Of a stretch of DNA of 64,000 nt, positions 15,158 to 64,000 are shown one piece after another. The notes under the pieces are model-generated. The model searched no databases, had not been told where the DNA came from, and saw nothing but the letters and a program-made list of their open reading frames with translations. Origin of the DNA: Hypomesus transpacificus (taxonomy: Eukaryota > Chordata > Actinopteri > Osmeriformes > Osmeridae). The translations under genes and the position numbers were made by a program. Location of the stretch: positions 1,841,497 to 1,905,496 of the forward strand of contig NC_061080.1 in assembly GCF_021917145.1 (NCBI RefSeq), written 5' to 3'. The stretch's first letter is position 1. Every line of letters begins with the position of its first letter.

Positions 15158-18100
15158 CTATACGTTACCTTCCAGAGAGTTCTCAGTCTTTTCACAGATG
15201 GCAGAGTAGTAGGGCGGCTGAGCATCAGACCCAGGCTCTGGGTGCCGAGAGCCCAGAGACAGGGAGGGGTCCAGGGGCCCCCCCAGGTCCCCAAACTCCC
15301 CCAGCTCCGCTCCCTGCCTCCCACACAGCATATAGAGATGCTCATCGGGGTGAGAACCACCCCCGTCTCCTCCCAGAGGCAGGAGGTCTACGGGTGGCTC
15401 ACCCGAGGAGGGCTGCCGTGGGGAGGTCGGCTCCCCGATGAGGGATGGAGCCTTGTCTTCCTCCGGCAGCTCCTCCAGGGAGAAGATGCCCGGGCTCTTG
15501 GGGCAGCCCTCCCCCGCGGAGTGGGCGTTGGAGCTGGAAGCCGTGGTCGTCATGTCGAAGCCGTAAGATGCAGCCGAGTTGGCTGAATGCGGCGTGTCGC
15601 CGCCCCACTCCTCGCCGATGGCTTCTTCGCCTTCCTCCAAAGCAGACAGGCAGCGCTGGGCGGCGGCGGCGGGCTTGGCTTCGAACGCCGCGTTGACGAT
15701 CCCGCCGTCCTCCAGGGGCTCATCCAGCTGGGCCTCGCCTTCCGTGTCGCTGGCTTCGTCCTCGCTGGTGGATGAGGACGAGGGGTTGGAGGTGGGGGCC
15801 GTGGCAGGACCGCCCAGCACCTCGTCTGCGGGAAGGGTCTCTGCCTCCTCTTCCTCCCCATCACCTTGCTCCAGGTGGATGCCCAAGTCCTGGTCCTCTG
15901 GGTCAGGCTGGAGGGACAGCACCGGAGCAGGGGCCTGCCCACCGTGGAGCTTACCCTCCTTGTTGTAGTTTCGCAGCTCCTCCGGTGTGCTGGTCTCACT
16001 GCTGCTATGGGTAGCCAGGTCGGCACTGCTCAAGGTGCTGGACTGGGACATGCCCGGGCCAGAGATGGGTGCGGGGGCCAGGGTCTGCATGGGGCCCAGG
16101 CCAGGCTGGTGCTCCTCATCCAGGCCTTGAGCAGGACTAAGTTTCGGCAAGCTAGCTGAAGGCATGTGGAGAGCCGGTTCTTGGGGAACAAAGGGGGCTG
16201 AGCCCAGCTCTAGCCAGGCTTGGGCGGGAGACTGGGTTGGGGTTTCAGAGTCCGCCTGCCAGGCGTCTACTGAAGGGCTGGCGGGGGCTAACAGAGGTGC
16301 TGAGGCATTCTGGGCTGGCTGGAATGGCTGGGCCCAGGGGTTGTTTGGTTGGTCCCATTGCGCGGCTGAGGGCAGCAGGGGGGCAGGGTGAAGCAGGGCA
16401 GCACGATTGAGGTTGTCCAACCGCTCATCTTCAGCAAAGTCGTCTTCGTCAGCGTTCCCGTAGCTTTCCAGCCCGCTCTCAGTCACGCCCTCGCTGGCCA
16501 TCTCCACATCTTCATCCTCCTCTTCCTCCTCTTCATGCCTCACCCTCCTCGGGTCCTCCGCTCGCTCCGACCCGACCTCCATGTCACACACTCGATCGTC
16601 ATCGTCCTCGTCTTCCTCCTCGTCCTCCTCAAAATCGTTCGCCGGGATGTCCGGCACCTTCTCGAAGTCGGGGGAGCCAGCAGACGCCCCTTCCATGTCC
16701 ACGATGGCCCCCTTCAGGCTGGCATCTCCCAGGTCGTCCATGCTCTCCGTGCCCTCCAAGACCCCCGGAGCGCTCAGCTCGGACGCCCCCTGTTGGCTGC
16801 AGCTCACTTCCTCGGAGTCGAGCTCCGACAGGAGAGCGCCGCCCCCTCGCCACGCCGACCCTCCGGCGGGCCCTGCCGAGCCGGGCCGGGACTCCTCCGT
16901 GGGCTGGGTACCGCTCATGTCTGACACGGACACCTGCTGGCTGCCCTCCCTCTCCTCTTCATCATCTTCCTCCTCATCCTCATTGAGGTTGGCCTCCGCT
17001 TTGAAAATAACGTCCCCTTGAGGGGCAGAAGCCTCGAGAGCTACCGGCGAGGACGTTTCCGACACCTCGGGCATTAGCAGTGCAGGCTCCTCTGACTGTG
17101 TTGACTCTACAAGTGAGGCCACAGCTGGGGTAGCTTCTGCTAGGAAAGGCCTTGGTTCCTGTTCTGGACTGAGGGGGACAGCAGCAAGTATCGGGTCCTG
17201 CTGCAGACTGGCTGTTGACATGACGGGGCTGAGTGGAGGGGAGGTAAGATCTACTGTTGGGGTGTCGTGGTACCCGGGTGGAGTAACCTCCACGGGGGAA
17301 GGAGAGGGAGGAGACACGGTGATCAGAGCTGGGACAAGGGCTGATGGGACCTCCGGTGATACTTCCTCCGCTTCTGCCTGTGCTGCCACCTCGGGCTCCG
17401 TGGAAGTTGCAGAGACAACGGCCACAACGGCCGCTGTCACGGCCGCCGTCACGGCCACCGTCGCGCCATGAGGCTTCTTGGTGATCGAGAACGGCACAAC
17501 AGACTGGGTGGGCTTGGAGGTGCGTTTGATCGACTGAGCGGTGCCGCCGGCGGCCGGCTTGGTAATGGGAGAGGCAGGTGGGGTCCGGCCCAGGGGCTGT
17601 CGGGTGGCAGGCGGCCGGGCGGTAGGGGGTGCTTTCCGTGTGGCTTGGGGCCTGGCTGTTTTCAGGTCGGCAGTCTTGGAGGGAGGGGGGTGCTTGGAGA
17701 CTGGGTCGGATCTGGGGGCAGCGGTCGGTTTAGGGGCATCTGGCTTGGTAGTTTTGTTAGTGGCCGCCGCCACAGGCTTTTTAGCCGGTGGTTTGGTAAC
17801 ATCTGAAATGGAAAAAGCCAGGGGATTGGCACCAGTTGAGCAACTCGCATTTTGGTATTTGGTCCATTTACAGAGAAACAACATTGCGTCGTAGCCCAGG
17901 CTTACCTTTCTTAGCAGTGGTGGGTTTGGAGGACGGTGCTACTGTAGTCCTGACAGCAGGGGGAGCTGTGGCGCCTAGTCTATGGGCAGGAGGCCTGGCC
18001 GTGGTGGAGGTGCCGGGTGGCTTGGATGTGGCCGTGGAGACGCCCGGGCGAGACGTTGGTGGCTGGGTGGCAGGTCTGGAGGAGCAAACGAGGTGTTAGT

Positions 18101-28900: not shown

Positions 28901-29423
28901 TCTTCGCTACCAAATAGCCTTGCATCATCTCCTCTGCCTGATATCGATGCCAAGAGACACGACAGAGCCCCATTTTAGATGGAGCCAACACTGAACCCTC
29001 TGACTGGCTCCCTTCCTACGCTCCCCCTCCCTCCCTCCCCGTCTCCCCTCCCTGGTCACCGTGGCCAAGGCCAATGGATGGAGCTTTCAGCACAGTGTGC
29101 GCGAGACGGTCGCCTTTATGTTGCAAGTGAGCTCTCTGGTCATCCCTCTCTCCCTCTCTGTGGAGTCATTGATGGGCCGCTGTCTGTCTTAGAGTGAGAG
29201 GGGTGGGGGTTGGGGGGGACAGAGACTCCCTCAGAGGGGCTCTGACCACAGGAACACAGGCCTTATTCTCAGAGTGTGTGTGAAGCCTATTGGTAGAAAA
29301 AGGGGGGGGGGGGCACGCAAAGAGAGGAGAGAAAAAATAAATAAAAGAGTGCGGGAGCTGAGTTTCGGGAAAGGGAGGGGCCAGGGCCGGAGGAGAAGAA
29401 GGGGCTTTCCTTCACGGTGGGAG

Positions 29424-30467
29424 CAGCAACTGGTCGCCTCACCACGCACACTGCAGGCAGGATGTGGACCAGCAGCTGGTCGCCTCACCACGCACACTGC
29501 AGGCAGGATGTGGACCAGCAGCTGGTCGCCTCACCACGCACACTGCAGGCAGGATGTGGACCAGCAGCTGGTCGCCTCACCACGCACACTGCAGGCAGGA
29601 TGTGGACCAGCAGCTGGTCGCCTCACCACGCACACTGCAGGCAGGATGTGGACCAGCAGCTGGTCGCCTCACCACGCACACTGCAGGCAGGATGTGGACC
29701 AGCAGCTGGTCGCCTCACCACGCACACTGCAGGCAGGATGTGGACCAGCAGCTGGTCATCTCACCACGCACACTGCAGGCAGGATGTGGACCAGCAGCTG
29801 GTCGCCTCACCACGCACACTGCAGGCAGGATGTGGACCAGCAGCTGGTCGCCTCACCACGCACACTGCAGGCAGGATGTGGACCAGCAGCTGGTCGCCTC
29901 ACCACGCACACTGCAGGCAGGATGTGGACCAGCAGCTGGTCATCTCACCACGCACACTGCAGGCAGGATGTGGACCAGCAGCTGGTCATCTCACCACGCA
30001 CACTGCAGGCAGGATGTGGACCAGCAGCTGGTTATCTCACCACGCACACTGCAGGCAGGATGTGGACCAGCAGCTGGTTATCTCACCACGCACACTGCAG
30101 GCAGGATGTGGACCAGCAGCTGGTTATCTCACCACGCACACTGCAGGCAGGATGTGGACCAGCAGCTGGTTCTCTCACCACGCACACTGCAGGCAGGATG
30201 TGGACCAGCAGCTGGTTATCTCACCACGCACACTGCAGGCAGGATGTGGACCAGCAGCTGGTCGCCTCACCACGCACACTGCAGGCAGGATGTGGACCAG
30301 CAGCTGGTCGCCTCACCACGCACACTGCAGGCAGGATGTGGACCAGCAGCTGGTTATCTGACCACGCACACTGCAGGCAGGATGTGGACCAGCAGCTGGT
30401 CGCCTCACCACGCACACTGCAGGCAGGATGTGGACCAGCAGCTGGTTATCTCACCACGCACACTGCA
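29424..30467. repeat. 46-bp minisatellite, 22 full copies plus a partial copy
   Basis: The unit starts GTCGCCTCACCACGCACACT and continues GCAGGCAGGATGTGGACCAG then CAGCTG, 46 bases in all. Successive copies start at 29433, 29479, 29525 and so on to 30445, exactly every 46 bases. Copies differ almost only at the GTCGCC hexamer: GTCGCC in most, GTCATC at 29755, 29939 and 29985, GTTATC at 30031-30123, 30215, 30353 and 30445, and GTTCTC at 30169. Each copy holds ACCAGCAGCTGGT, a perfect inverted repeat with a one-base centre. Because 46 is not a multiple of three and the unit lacks plus-strand stops, all three plus-strand frames stay open across the array; those open frames (up to 422 codons) are not genes. 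Confidence 0.97.
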
Positions 30468-42945: not shown

Positions 42946-45900
42946 AGGGAGGGAGGGAGGGAGGCAGGGAGGGAGGCAGGGAGGCAGGGAGGGAGGGGCA
43001 GTCAGTCTCACATACATCAAAGCTGTGTGTGTGCTACCTGTATAAAGGCATTCACACAAGTCTGCAGTGTGCGTGTATAAGAGCGCGTCTTACATTGTAC
43101 TTCTGGAAGAAGCTGAGGTAGCGAATGACTCCAACCCACACCAGTAAGGTGGACGTTCCCAGCAGGATACCACACAGGTCATACGAGGATAAGTTCTGAC
43201 CAGGCCCAAGCAAAAACACAACACACATTTAGAGATTGTAGATGGACCACAAACTATTCAGAGTGTCACAATGAATAGGAGTGCTGACTCAAACGTATGG
43301 GGAATGACCAAGCTCTGCGGGAGCCCGATAACAACTATCAGGTGTGTGGGAGCAGGGAAACATCTAGAAACATAGAGGGCCCTGAGGACCAGGGTTAAGG
43401 ACCGACTCGACCAGGCAAACTCCTGGAGAATGCCAGGCCACACGGGGTCTCCTGGGGGGCAGCGTGGGCCCACCTTGGACTCGATGCCGATCTTGATGAA
43501 GCTGCCGGTGATGGTGAGGACGTCGCTGATGATCAGGAGGATGTACCAGCCGTTGATGAACTCCATCCTGTCCGACCAGCTCACCGGGCGGCTCAGGCTG
43601 TCCTTGAAGAACTTGACGTACTCCTGTGTGTGTGGGGGGGGGTGTGTGTGTGTGGGGGGGGGGGGATGTGAGAAGAGAGTAAGGGACTGGATGAAAATAT
43701 CTCGCTCATCAATGACTCCACACCTGGGTATTGATACAGTCCCTCCCTTCACACGCCCTCCTCCCCCTCCCCCCTCCTCCTCCTCCCCCCTCCTCCCCCT
43801 CCCCCCTCTCCCTCCTCCCCCCCCCCCTGGCCCTGCAGGGCCTCTTACGTGCTGCAGGATGACCCCTCTCAGGATGGAGCGTCCACACAGCAGCAGGGAC
43901 AGCACACACACCACCGCCACCGCCACGTCAAACGTCAGCCGCGTGTAGTTCTCCGCTACGGGGAGGGGGAAAGGACGGCGCGTCTCTTTTCTGTGTGTGT
44001 GTGTGCGTGTGTATCTCTGTGTGTGTTTTTTTGTGTATCTACATGTGTGTGTGTGTGTATCTCTGTGTGTGTGTGTATTGGTGTGTGTGTGTATCTACAT
44101 GTCTGTGTGAGTGTGTCTATATGTGTGTGTATCTGTGTGTATCTACATGGGTGTATGTATTTACATGTGTGTGTGTGTGTGTATCTGTGTGTGTGTATCT
44201 ACATGTGTGTGTACATGTGTGTGTGTATCTGTGTGTGTGTGCGTGTATCTGTGTGTGTGTATCTGTGTGTGTGTGTGCATGGTCCTCTCACCATGTCCGG
44301 ACACACTGGGGTCTTTACACTCCTTTATCGACGCCTGGTTGCCTAGGCTGATCTGCACTTTGCCGCTGTGGGCTTTGTTGTCCAACACGATCTGTTAGGG
44401 GGGAAAAGACAGCACACACGGTCCGTCCTGCTGGAACACACAGAGGCTGTACATGATCGGGGGGGTGATGGTGCGCTGAGGACCGCCGCTCACGGTTATG
44501 AAGAAGGTGTAACAGTCGGGAATCTCGTTGTTGATGATGGTTTGAATGTTGATGGCTTTCAGCTGGAACTCTATTGTCACGTTGATGAGCCTGCCGGGGG
44601 GGGGGGGGGGGGAGGGGGAGGGAGAGAGAGAGAGACAGAGAGACATAGAGAGACAGAGAGAGGGGGAGAGAGAGAGAAGGAAAATTACAAGACAAAACTT
44701 ACATAAAGTGTGTGTAGAAAACAACGTTTACTTCAGTTCATTCCACTGTTAAATTCCAAAGTGTTGTTACCAAACACAGTGGCCAGGAGGCATGGAGGAA
44801 AACATACTTGTGGAACTTGAGGGTAAAGTTCTTGTAATCGCTGGTTAAAGGCATTGGAGGGGCAGCTAGGGGAGTCACACCTATGCAGTCTGGAGACAGG
44901 ACAGACAGGCCTTAGTTTCCAGTAGATGTCTATAACACCATCAGACAGACATGATGCCATTCCCAAGATTAAAGGTAGCTTAAGGATAAAGGATATTCTC
45001 TCTCTTTCCCTCGGAAAAGCACGCTTACACATATACCGTCTTATTTTAAATGTACTCGCGTGTGTATACGCTTAAAAGAGACAGGTGATTCCCTTGTACC
45101 AGCACGTGGGGGGAGGGAGGGGGAGGGGGAGAGTGACACACCCACCGGTGACGACGCGAGGGTCTATGTTGAAGGTGTCGTTGGCCGGGTCGATGCTGCC
45201 CCTCTTGTAGTACTGCTGGCAGAGGGAGAGGGCGCTCCCGTTGTAGCCCACGCCGTACACGTACGCGTAGCGCCCCACGGTGGTCTCCGGTAACACCAAG
45301 TACTGGGGGAGAGGGGGGAGGGAATAGGGGGAAGGGTGAGGACGCGAGGCGGAAGGGTGAAAGAAGCGAAATCCTAATCAAAACACGATTAGTTTTTTTG
45401 TTTCTGGAAAAGAAACAGCCGGATAAAAGAGAAGTGGGAAGGAAATGGATCGTTCGCACGATGCAGTGGACCCTCACTGAGATGTGCAGGGGACTTTGGG
45501 GAACGGATTACACGCGGCGTGAGTTACCTGGTCGATGGCGTAGAATATGTGCTTGTAGACGTCGCCCTGCGTGTAGACGGAAAACGTGTCGTCCGAGCCC
45601 TCGTCGAAGTCCTTCAGGAAGAGGTGTTTGAAGGTCATGGTGTTCTCCTCTTTGAAGGTCACCACCATCTGGTTGCTGAGGCCAAACAGCACCAGCTTGG
45701 CAGAGGAGAAGGGTGGGGGGGGGGGGAGATAGGGGGAAGAGAGAGAGAGCGAGCGAGCGAGAAAGACAGAGTGAAGGGGTAAGAGTGAGTCATTCAACTT
45801 TTAAAGAAAGAATTATCATACATACCCACAAATGTTACATAACTTGTGTACATAATTTGTGACATAATACAGCTTTCCTATCCTACCCAAAGAGACTTCA

Positions 45901-50577: not shown

Positions 50578-51242
50578 CTATCTGCCCTCCAGCGCTTTGT
50601 CTCTGGCGATGACTGCCTCGTCAAACTTGATCATGAGAGTGGTGCCCTTGTGCCAGTGTACGGTCACCTTGGCAGGGAAGCCACTGTGGGTGAGGATGGC
50701 TTCCACGATGCCCCCAGTGAAGGCTGCACAGTTGAGGGTGCTGTTCTCCTTGGGTACCGAGATGAAGGCATTGATGAGGGGCTCTTTCTCAATGATGTAG
50801 TAGGTCTTGTCATCGTCGTTGGCCTGCTCCAGCTTGTCTGCCTCCTTCCCGAACAGGGATCTCCACACAGACACCTGGAGTACGATAGGTCGCGGTGAAA
50901 CTGCGGGTCTAGCTTGGGGCATACTACACAAGCCCCCTGCTAATTTTGCTTTTCATGCAGATCTTAACTTACCTTAATGAAAAGCAGGATGTTCAGTACT
51001 TTTGTCTCTCTTTTACCGTTCTTCTCTCTCAGCACCAGCACATCCAGAAGGCTGGCACCCACGCCCTGACCCATGTCCGCCAGGCGAGCCTGAAGCTCGG
51101 ACACGGAGTAGACTCGACTCTGACAGTACTGTACCATCTCGGAGAAGAGCAACGCAAATGCACTCACGCTGACCTCCGTTTTAGGACGCGTGAGTGATCG
51201 CTCCAAAATAGCCGACTTCCCTCTGGTGAAGCGTGTCTCCAT
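50578..51242 (-). CDS. trappc5: TRAPP complex subunit 5 (TRS31 homologue)
   Basis: Two coding exons, 51242-50973 (90 codons) and 50874-50578 (98 codons plus stop), encode 188 aa, exactly the human length, and the match is close throughout. TRAPPC5 is a core Bet3-family subunit of the TRAPP complexes, which act as the Rab1 (TRAPPII: Rab11) exchange factor and vesicle tether at the ER-Golgi. Recognised blocks are RFTRGKSAILERSL at the start, FGKEADKLEQANDD and ISVPKENSTLNCA in the middle, THSGFPAKVT and HWHKGTTLMIKF, and a C-terminus ending ARDKALEGR. The start is the ATG at 51242, three bases after an acceptor; the ATG at 51251 lies in the intron. A non-coding first exon ends at a GTAAGT donor at 51479. 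The promoter side faces that of the PGLYRP gene about 0.9 kb away. Confidence 0.96.
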
Positions 51243-51478
51243 GTTCTGCACAGAATAGGAAATGCTGTTATGTTGTTTTCTCGAAACATGGTATTAATGC
51301 TTTACAAGCCTTTAGCGGAGTTGGCTAAACTAGCTAGGGCTAACATAGCTTAGCTAACAGCAAAAGCCATTTGTTCAGTCTGAATGAAAAACTGTGATAA
51401 TAGACTCTATAAGCATACATGCAATGAAACTGAATACAATATAGATATTGATTTAGTAAAGGAGTAAAACGTACTTAC

Positions 51479-52472: not shown

Positions 52473-54409
52473 ATGGGTTCTGTGATCATATGGCTTTTCT
52501 CTCTGTCTGGGATATGCTACAGCATAAACAATACAGGTAACGAACACAACCTGATCTTCTGAAAATGTAATATTGTGTTAATATGTCACTTACATCATGT
52601 GCACTGCGTCAAACTAAAAACGACAATGTTCTAGTCTCAGAGCTCCACACGAGGGACATGGACAGTTTCATCAATGCTGTTGAGCTGGTGGAGAAGTCCA
52701 ACCTCCACCTGCCCCCTCTCGCTGTGGTCCGAGGTCTCCGCAAAACCGCAGGGCACGAGGACCAACTGACCCTCCACTTCTTGGGCGCCTCCAACAACCT
52801 CAGCATGTCCGAGTTCAACACCACGCTCTTCAGCTTCTTCGACAAGGCCATCCACCATGTCGTGACGGACCACGGGGAGGAGCGAGGGGTGGTCCTCACC
52901 CAGGATGGGACCACTGTGGCCCTCGCGCCTCTGCTGCTCGGCATCGAAGTGGGGCTGAAAGCGAAGACGGAGGGCACCCCTCCCCTGGGGATGATACCCC
53001 TCACTCTGGCCCAGAACCTCGGACTCTCCTTCCTCCAACTCATGGACTTCCCGGCCTCTCAACGCCTGGGGCCAGACGGCTGCTGGGACAGCGTGGTCCT
53101 CCCTCGGGTCTTCAGGCTATCTCGACTGCCCACGCTGGCCACCGATGCCCTGATCAACGGAGGGATGGACGGCGCGATCTTAGGGATGGAGCTGGCGCAC
53201 CAGCCCTCCGCTGAACGTCCTAACAGGCTCAGTGACATCCTGAGGGGTTACTATATTGATGGTGTCAAGGGGCATGGTTTGGAGGGTGTATCCACCCACA
53301 TTAGCCCCAGGCGCAGGGAAAATTCCAGAGCCCTCCTCGGCCCTTTGGATCCCCAGAGACAAGTCATTGGAGACCCTAGCTATGGTTTGGAAACTGGAGG
53401 GGACTGAATGGATCCATAAGGATACAGGGGTGAAGAAGGCTGTGAGAGATGGGGTACTGGAGTTTGTCCACAGGTACTGGGGTGAGTCTGATCTAAAACT
53501 GAACATTTTTCCCTTTTTGATTTCCGAACTGTTTGAGACGAGCCTCAAACCTTGTCTGGAAAACAATACTTTGGTTATAAATGACAAGATATAGTATGAT
53601 CTTTTCTGTCATTCCTCGAACCCCTCCAGACTGCCCACCGGTCATCCCTCGGTGTCAGTGGGGCGCCGAGCCTCACAAGGCCTCGCCCATCCCACTCTCC
53701 CTGCCCCTCCCCTTCCTCTACATCCACCACACATATGAGCCCAGCCAGCCCTGTCTGACCTTCCAGCAGTGTTCCAGGGACATGAGGGCCATGCAGCTCT
53801 TCCACCAGGACGTCCGCGGGTGGGACGACATTGGAGACAGGTGGGTTGACCTCATCTGTTTGCTGGCAAACGCGTGAACAGCCAAACACAACCACGGGAT
53901 TCAAAGTCGTCATGATTCAAAAAGGACTTCTGTTGACACGCTGGCTTGGGACTGCACCCCCTCCCCTTGCAGCTTCGTGGTAGGCTCCAACGGGTACGTC
54001 TACGAGGGCCGAGGCTGGCTTCACCGTGGCCGCCACACCAGGGGTCACAACTCCATAGGCTATGGGGTGGCCTTCATCGGTGACTACTCTTCCTCTGTGC
54101 CCAGCCGCCACTCCCTGGAGCTGGTGAGACACCATCTGGTCAAGTGTGCTGTGGATAAGGGGCGACTGGCCGCCAACTACACCATCCACGGGCACCGACA
54201 AGTGGTCAACACTACTTGCCCAGGAGACTCCCTCTTCTCAGAGATCAAGAGCTGGGAGAATTTTAGGGTAAGAAACGGGTCTGTTATAATGTAAAATAAA
54301 GTTGAAGGATGCCTATACAATCATTTATGTATTTCAGTTATGATTTACAGACTGTGAATAAAGTTTGCTCACTTATTTTTTTTCCTCACAGGAGCCGAGT
54401 TCCATGTGA
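52473..54409 (+). CDS. pglyrp2: Long peptidoglycan-recognition protein (PGLYRP2 / pglyrp6 type), frameshifted, amidase Tyr replaced
   Basis: Five exons: 52473-52536, 52635-53481, 53630-53840, 53973-54267 and 54392-54409. If one extra G at 53369/53370 is ignored they encode 477 aa; as written the frame breaks there and stops at 53405-53407. Family members are secreted N-acetylmuramoyl-L-alanine amidases that cut the stem peptide from bacterial peptidoglycan. The first exon encodes a signal peptide (IIWLFSLSGICYS). A long N-terminal region shared with human PGLYRP2 follows (GVVLTQDGTTVALAPLL, LAQNLGLSFL, GCWD). The PGRP/amidase_2 domain starts near residue 304 (DCPPVIPRCQWG). Zinc ligands are present: H336 in YIHHTYEP, H448 in HGHRQ and C456 in TTCPGD, with T454 also conserved. 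The catalytic tyrosine (T7 lysozyme Y46; human IGYSF) reads IGDSF, D373. Activity is doubtful; a pseudogene, a receptor-only form or an assembly error are the options. Confidence 0.85.
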
Positions 54410-63616: not shown

Positions 63617-63895
63617 GGCTCTCTGTGCCTGGTCTCTGTGCCTGGTATTACATGCCTGGTCTCTGTGCCTGGTCTCTGTACCTGGTATTACATGCCCTGG
63701 TCTCTGTGCCTGGTCTCTGTGCCTGGTATTACATGCCTTGTCTCTGTGCCTGGTCTCTGTGCCTGGTATTACATGCCTGGTCTCTGTACCTGGTATTACA
63801 TGCCTGGTCTCTGTGCCTGGTATTACATGCCCGGTCTCTGTGCCTGGTCTCTGTGCCTGGTCTCTGTGCTTGGTCTCTGTGCCTGGTATTACATG
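63617..63895. repeat. Two-monomer minisatellite (13- and 14-base units)
   Basis: About 20 monomers alternate irregularly between GGTCTCTGTGCCT (13 bases) and GGTATTACATGCCT (14 bases), with single-base variants such as GTACCT and CTTGG. The order is not fixed: one or two of the first kind usually precede one of the second. Confidence 0.93.
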
Positions 63896-64000
63896 CTTAC
63901 TATGGCGCTCCCAGGCCACAAAAGCCCTGTGCAAGTCTGCCAAGCTCGGCTGAATATTTATGTATACACAGAGAGCTGCTGCTCTCCCTCCCCCATCTCT

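Follow-up and report, generated by a model that had tools for sequence, protein, structure and literature searches.

In the window, the whole stretch of 64,000 nucleotides analysed here, a long peptidoglycan recognition protein (PGRP) gene of a vertebrate, probably a ray-finned fish (pglyrp2/pglyrp6-like, and by ancestry the gene of a secreted zinc amidase), may well be in early decay. Two lesions, one truncating and one catalytic, affect a gene whose domain is otherwise well kept, and they point to decay or to a sequence error. The truncating lesion is a frame shift within exon 2, ahead of the amidase domain, and the catalytic one is the presence of Asp in the column of the catalytic Tyr.

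Organization of the gene and its neighbourhood

The gene spans positions 52473-54409 of the forward strand and consists of five exons (Table 1). Its four introns, of 98, 148, 132 and 124 bases from 5′ to 3′, all have GT-AG ends. In exon 1, the sequence MGSVIIWLFSLSGICYSINNT looks like a signal peptide when judged by eye. Because this exon is followed by the long N-terminal region carried by exon 2, the gene is a long PGRP by its anatomy. The parts of a teleost long PGRP are thus present, the signal peptide being accepted by eye, but they are not carried by a continuous frame, since exon 2 contains a break.

Table 1. Exons of the long PGRP gene and positions of its lesions in the window
Feature	Position	Strand	Remarks
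Exon 1	52473..52536	+	Start codon and MGSVIIWLFSLSGICYSINNT; 64 nt; ends in phase 1; GTAACG donor
Exon 2	52635..53481	+	Long N-terminal region; 847 nt; frame shift inside; weak acceptor
Exon 3	53630..53840	+	First half of the PGRP/Amidase_2 domain; first zinc-ligand His
Exon 4	53973..54267	+	Remaining half of the domain, with the Thr and the zinc ligands His (second) and Cys
Exon 5	54392..54409	+	EPSSM, then TGA stop
Asp codon GAC, at the place of the catalytic Tyr	53836..53838	+	From the sequence and alignments
Likely interval of the net frame shift	53300..53404	+	From codon preference
TGA stop reached by the 5′ frame of exon 2	53405..53407	+	Product as written, 278 residues

The closest known systems are the long PGRPs of teleosts, namely zebrafish PGRP2 and PGRP6, carp PGRP6 and snakehead PGRP-L1 and PGRP-L2. 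These proteins share with the present gene a long N-terminal region, a C-terminal amidase domain and a His/His/Cys zinc site. The nominal product of 477 residues may be compared with the 446 residues of carp PGRP6 (PMC6322232) and with the 478 and 492 residues of snakehead L1 and L2 (PMC12745986).

No other PGRP copy was detected in the window, four right-frame queries having matched only themselves below an E-value of 0.4. On the reverse strand, a TRAPP-domain gene, presumably trappc5, lies at 50581-51293, and pieces of a mucolipin gene are found at about 44400-45800. An open frame of 926 codons at 15161-17938, also on the reverse strand, has no Pfam match; near it, on the same strand, the open frame 11715-12815 matches the BTBD8 C-terminal domain. 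The window further contains a tandem repeat at 29420-30467 (46-base unit, 22.8 copies, 97% matches), whose forward strand offers more than one open frame, and another one close to its end, at 63620-63896, with units of 13, 27 or 40 bases. Nothing was found by Rfam in the 64-kb window at the gathering threshold.

The PGRP domain and its zinc site

Exons 3-5 encode a PGRP domain, which is matched by the Pfam profile Amidase_2 (PF01510) at 55.8 bits for a cut-off of 26. A sequence search of the PDB returned 33 distinct matches up to E = 1 that are named as PGRPs, amidases, endolysin or lysozymes, and one further match bearing only the name CG14704. The best chain was 4z8i, peptidoglycan recognition protein 3 (E 6.3e-40), presumably an amphioxus protein. 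Drosophila PGRP-LB came next; it has the same domain, with 40% identity (the PDB entries of this protein and its Y78F mutant are 1OHT, 7NSX, 7NSZ and 7NT0). The profile match and the matches to solved PGRPs thus place the domain within the PGRP/Amidase_2 family. The NCBIfam search assigned no family.

For comparison, 64 bacterial homologues were drawn from 108 pattern matches in one scan of genome_contigs, and all 64 were aligned by tblastn. Two scans of viral_contigs gave no relatives, and a search of phage records returned 82 records. The zinc ligands His, His and Cys are kept in the window as H33, H145 and C153 of the domain, and the identical residue is observed in 52 of 60, 62 of 64 and 64 of 64 aligned bacterial homologues, respectively. 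The retention of the zinc ligands and of the Thr, announced in the original prediction, is therefore borne out by the alignments to solved PGRPs as well as to bacterial homologues. More generally, agreement among the bacterial homologues is at least 85% in 26 columns, of which the window keeps 24, the two departures being the Tyr column, with Asp, and an Ile column, with Met. Hence, apart from the catalytic residue, the domain is little worn, as would be the case in recent decay. Residue 91 of the domain, in exon 4, is an Arg (GRHT for GAHx); at this position, Ala is found in 53 and Arg in four of the 64 bacterial homologues.

An aspartate in the column of the catalytic tyrosine

Exon 3 ends with GGA GAC AG at 53840, followed by GTGGGT, and exon 4 starts with C TTC at 53973, after GCAG; the joined peptide reads DIGDSF. 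The letters of this junction and the Asp codon are as had been claimed, 53836 being the G of GAC. The assignment of this Asp to the catalytic Tyr column stands as well, since it aligns with the Tyr of two solved PGRPs, 4z8i and PGRP-LB (1oht). The domain therefore has Asp instead of the catalytic Tyr that characterizes an amidase PGRP (T7 Y46, PGRP-LB Y78).

The column is strongly conserved. Among the 64 bacterial homologues, 63 have Tyr and one has Gln. The patterns used in the homologue search stopped just short of this column, at the preceding residue; they thus selected for the neighbouring DIG and not for Tyr. The only homologue of the 64 without Tyr (L020), with its Gln, is from Pseudonocardia. 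In fish, according to three papers, Tyr is present in zebrafish PGRP2, 5 and 6 (PMC11785313), in carp PGRP5 and 6 (PMC6322232) and in snakehead L1, L2 and S (PMC12745986), that is, in all eight proteins. Thus, unlike the window with its Asp, the long PGRPs of zebrafish, carp and snakehead have the Tyr, and their descriptions concern expressed genes or proteins. In the literature searched, at the level of titles and abstract starts, neither a Tyr-to-Asp PGRP nor a decayed fish long PGRP was found.

The possibility that splicing restores the Tyr was also considered. Around exons 3 and 4, ten in-frame and stop-free GT-AG choices were found and none of them brings the Tyr back: DIG survives in six, with Asp as the next residue in each case, and is lost in the other four.

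A frame shift within exon 2

Exons 1 and 2 together make 911 nt and end in phase 2, where exon 3 requires phase 1. Because of this mismatch and of the TGA at 53405, the coding sequence 52473-54409 is not intact, contrary to what had been assumed. Over most of exon 2, the 5′ frame looks like coding sequence; it becomes weaker from about 53207 and then runs into the TGA. The 3′ end of the exon that fits exon 3 (..WKLEGTEWIHKDTGVKKAVRDGVLEFVHRYWG) sits in a different frame from this 5′ part.

Codon preference was used to follow the frame along the exon. The model was trained on 1480 codons, taken from exons 3-4, the TRAPP gene, the 926-codon open frame 15161-17938 and 600 bases of exon 2. The coding preference changes frame within exon 2, with an optimum at 53303 and scores within 2 log units at 53300-53357; the shift is placed only loosely, as no frame scores well at about 53207-53311. 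Over the untrained stretch 53237-53480, the model with a switch scores 4.5, compared with -16.1 for the 5′ frame alone and -3.3 for the other frame alone, and the score of the 3′ piece was matched by none of 2000 base shuffles. Permitting the switch brings a gain of 20.6, part of which is due to the stops of the 5′ frame at 53405 and 53417. As a control, 52 windows from unshifted frames were scored, in each case after removal of the piece concerned from the training set; none reached this gain (control maximum, 7.3). One upstream window of 25 codons, 53057-53131, slightly prefers the other frame (2.6 vs 0.3), which is taken as noise.

As written, the gene encodes 278 residues without the PGRP domain. 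The numbering H336, H448, T454 and C456 put forward originally fits the nominal 477-residue protein, and holds only once the frame shift is absorbed. If the assembly is correct, the coding frame thus bears an inactivating lesion, made of the shift and of the stop at 53405, as in a pseudogene. The truncated product resembles the frame-shifted splice forms of mouse TagL (PGLYRP2), in which the N-terminal region occurs without the PGRP domain; the mouse shift results from alternative splicing, as reported in section 4 of PMC5536018, whereas that of the window lies in the genomic sequence. The 10-mer CATTGGAGAC is present just twice in the window, both times on the forward strand and not at all on the reverse strand, at 53365-53374, in the broad shift interval, and at 53829-53838, where it ends with the Asp codon. 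This paired occurrence is probably due to chance.

Two kinds of splicing within exon 2 were examined as ways to bypass the shift. First, an alternative donor could lead straight to exon 3; seven GT in the right phase occur at 53100-53408, the best of them with 3.4 bits. On the scale used, which is based on consensus frequencies, the four real donors score 7.5-9.8 bits, and all 33 GT at 52640-53469 stay below 5 bits. The alternative donor was therefore rejected. Second, a small intron could be removed from inside the exon. Two weak candidates, of 73 and 82 nt, with donors of 3.4 and 2.3 bits, would rejoin the two frames of exon 2. Such a rescue is unlikely. Nevertheless, since partial deletions of exon 2 by splicing have been described for fish PGRPs (section 4 of PMC5536018), these weak internal introns remain conceivable.

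Decay, sequence error or change of function

The original prediction had offered two outcomes for this gene, conversion into a receptor or early decay. The exon 2 shift, which it had not reported, makes a full-length receptor less likely and favours decay or a sequence error. Early decay is the reading favoured here, with moderate confidence. Translation would be halted by the shift ahead of the amidase domain, and a transcript, if made, would give the truncated N-terminal product or would be destroyed. The Asp change would then be tolerated because the amidase is no longer needed here. Two considerations weigh against decay. With its four GT-AG introns, its stop-free domain exons and its conserved columns, the gene looks functional apart from the two lesions. 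Moreover, the truncated product might still act, as the mouse TagL forms devoid of the PGRP domain are reported to bind bacteria and peptidoglycan (section 4 of PMC5536018).

The gene may also be an ordinary intact long PGRP amidase, one or both lesions existing only in the assembly. This explanation, the main rival, is rather unlikely, without being negligible. Draft fish genomes often retain single-base errors, only two lesions mark an otherwise sound coding sequence, and the shift interval contains four homopolymer runs of four bases each, a context that makes indel errors more likely. On the other hand, two independent errors would have to lie in a stretch of roughly 540 bases, and one would have to fall at the catalytic codon. 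In addition, no frame shift was seen in the neighbouring sequences, which comprise two TRAPP-domain exons, three mucolipin extracytosolic pieces and the 926-codon open frame, although at about 3.8 kb this is a small control.

If the Asp is real and only the shift is an error, the gene would encode a full-length long PGRP of the receptor type, able to bind zinc and peptidoglycan without cutting the latter. A parallel for such a protein is the Y78F mutant of Drosophila PGRP-LB, in which, likewise, the Tyr is gone and the zinc ligands are kept; cleavage is abolished for every compound tested, and binding of zinc and of peptidoglycan is preserved (PMC8124813). On this basis, and also under the decay reading, the domain of the window, if it were made, would keep the zinc and probably the binding of peptidoglycan, with no cutting. 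The mechanism proposed earlier, binding without cutting, is thereby supported for the case in which the domain is made, with the difference that Y78F was made in the laboratory and puts Phe into an intact catalytic protein, so that a natural Asp is not the residue tested there. Regulatory roles of fish long PGRPs are also known, since rainbow trout OmPGRP-L1 is reported to act as a negative regulator of NOD-mediated cytokine production (PMC5171823). However, among the PGRPs aligned in PMC8124813, Y78 is reported to be invariant even in non-catalytic members, and it is the zinc ligands that are conserved only in the catalytic ones. Similarly, the Cys is absent from human and mouse PGRP1, 3 and 4 (PMC11785313). 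Receptor-type PGRPs therefore do not usually arise by loss of the Tyr. As the shift must in addition be an artefact, a full-length receptor is improbable.

Finally, exon 2 might be skipped as a whole, which is a cleaner rescue than the weak internal introns. The acceptor of exon 2 (52617-52634) is the weakest of the four, with 6 pyrimidines out of 15, compared with 12, 13 and 13 out of 15 for exons 3-5. The end of exon 1 and the start of exon 3 are both in phase 1, and the joined frame is open up to the normal stop. Given this phase match and the weak acceptor, skipping would yield a secreted short PGRP of 194 residues with the zinc site and Asp for the catalytic Tyr, possibly a non-cutting binder of peptidoglycan or a decoy. 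A variant of grass carp PGRP6 lacking all of exon 2 has indeed been described (section 4 of PMC5536018). Yet the grass carp variants accompany the normal form and are intracellular despite their signal peptide, according to the same source, and the matching phases of exons 1 and 3 may be inherited from an ancestor without reflecting any adaptation, so that a functional short form appears very doubtful.

Significance

The present case illustrates that a single catalytic substitution should not be interpreted before the rest of the frame has been checked. If the short form were real, it would represent a natural change from enzyme to receptor in which the zinc site is kept and only the catalytic Tyr is dropped, a route that is not described in the passages of PMC8124813 considered here. 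If early decay, the favoured reading, is correct, the gene would add one more case to the birth-and-death evolution proposed for vertebrate PGRPs (PMC3071341), and would be a modest instance of the loss, in a fish, of an enzyme that clears peptidoglycan.
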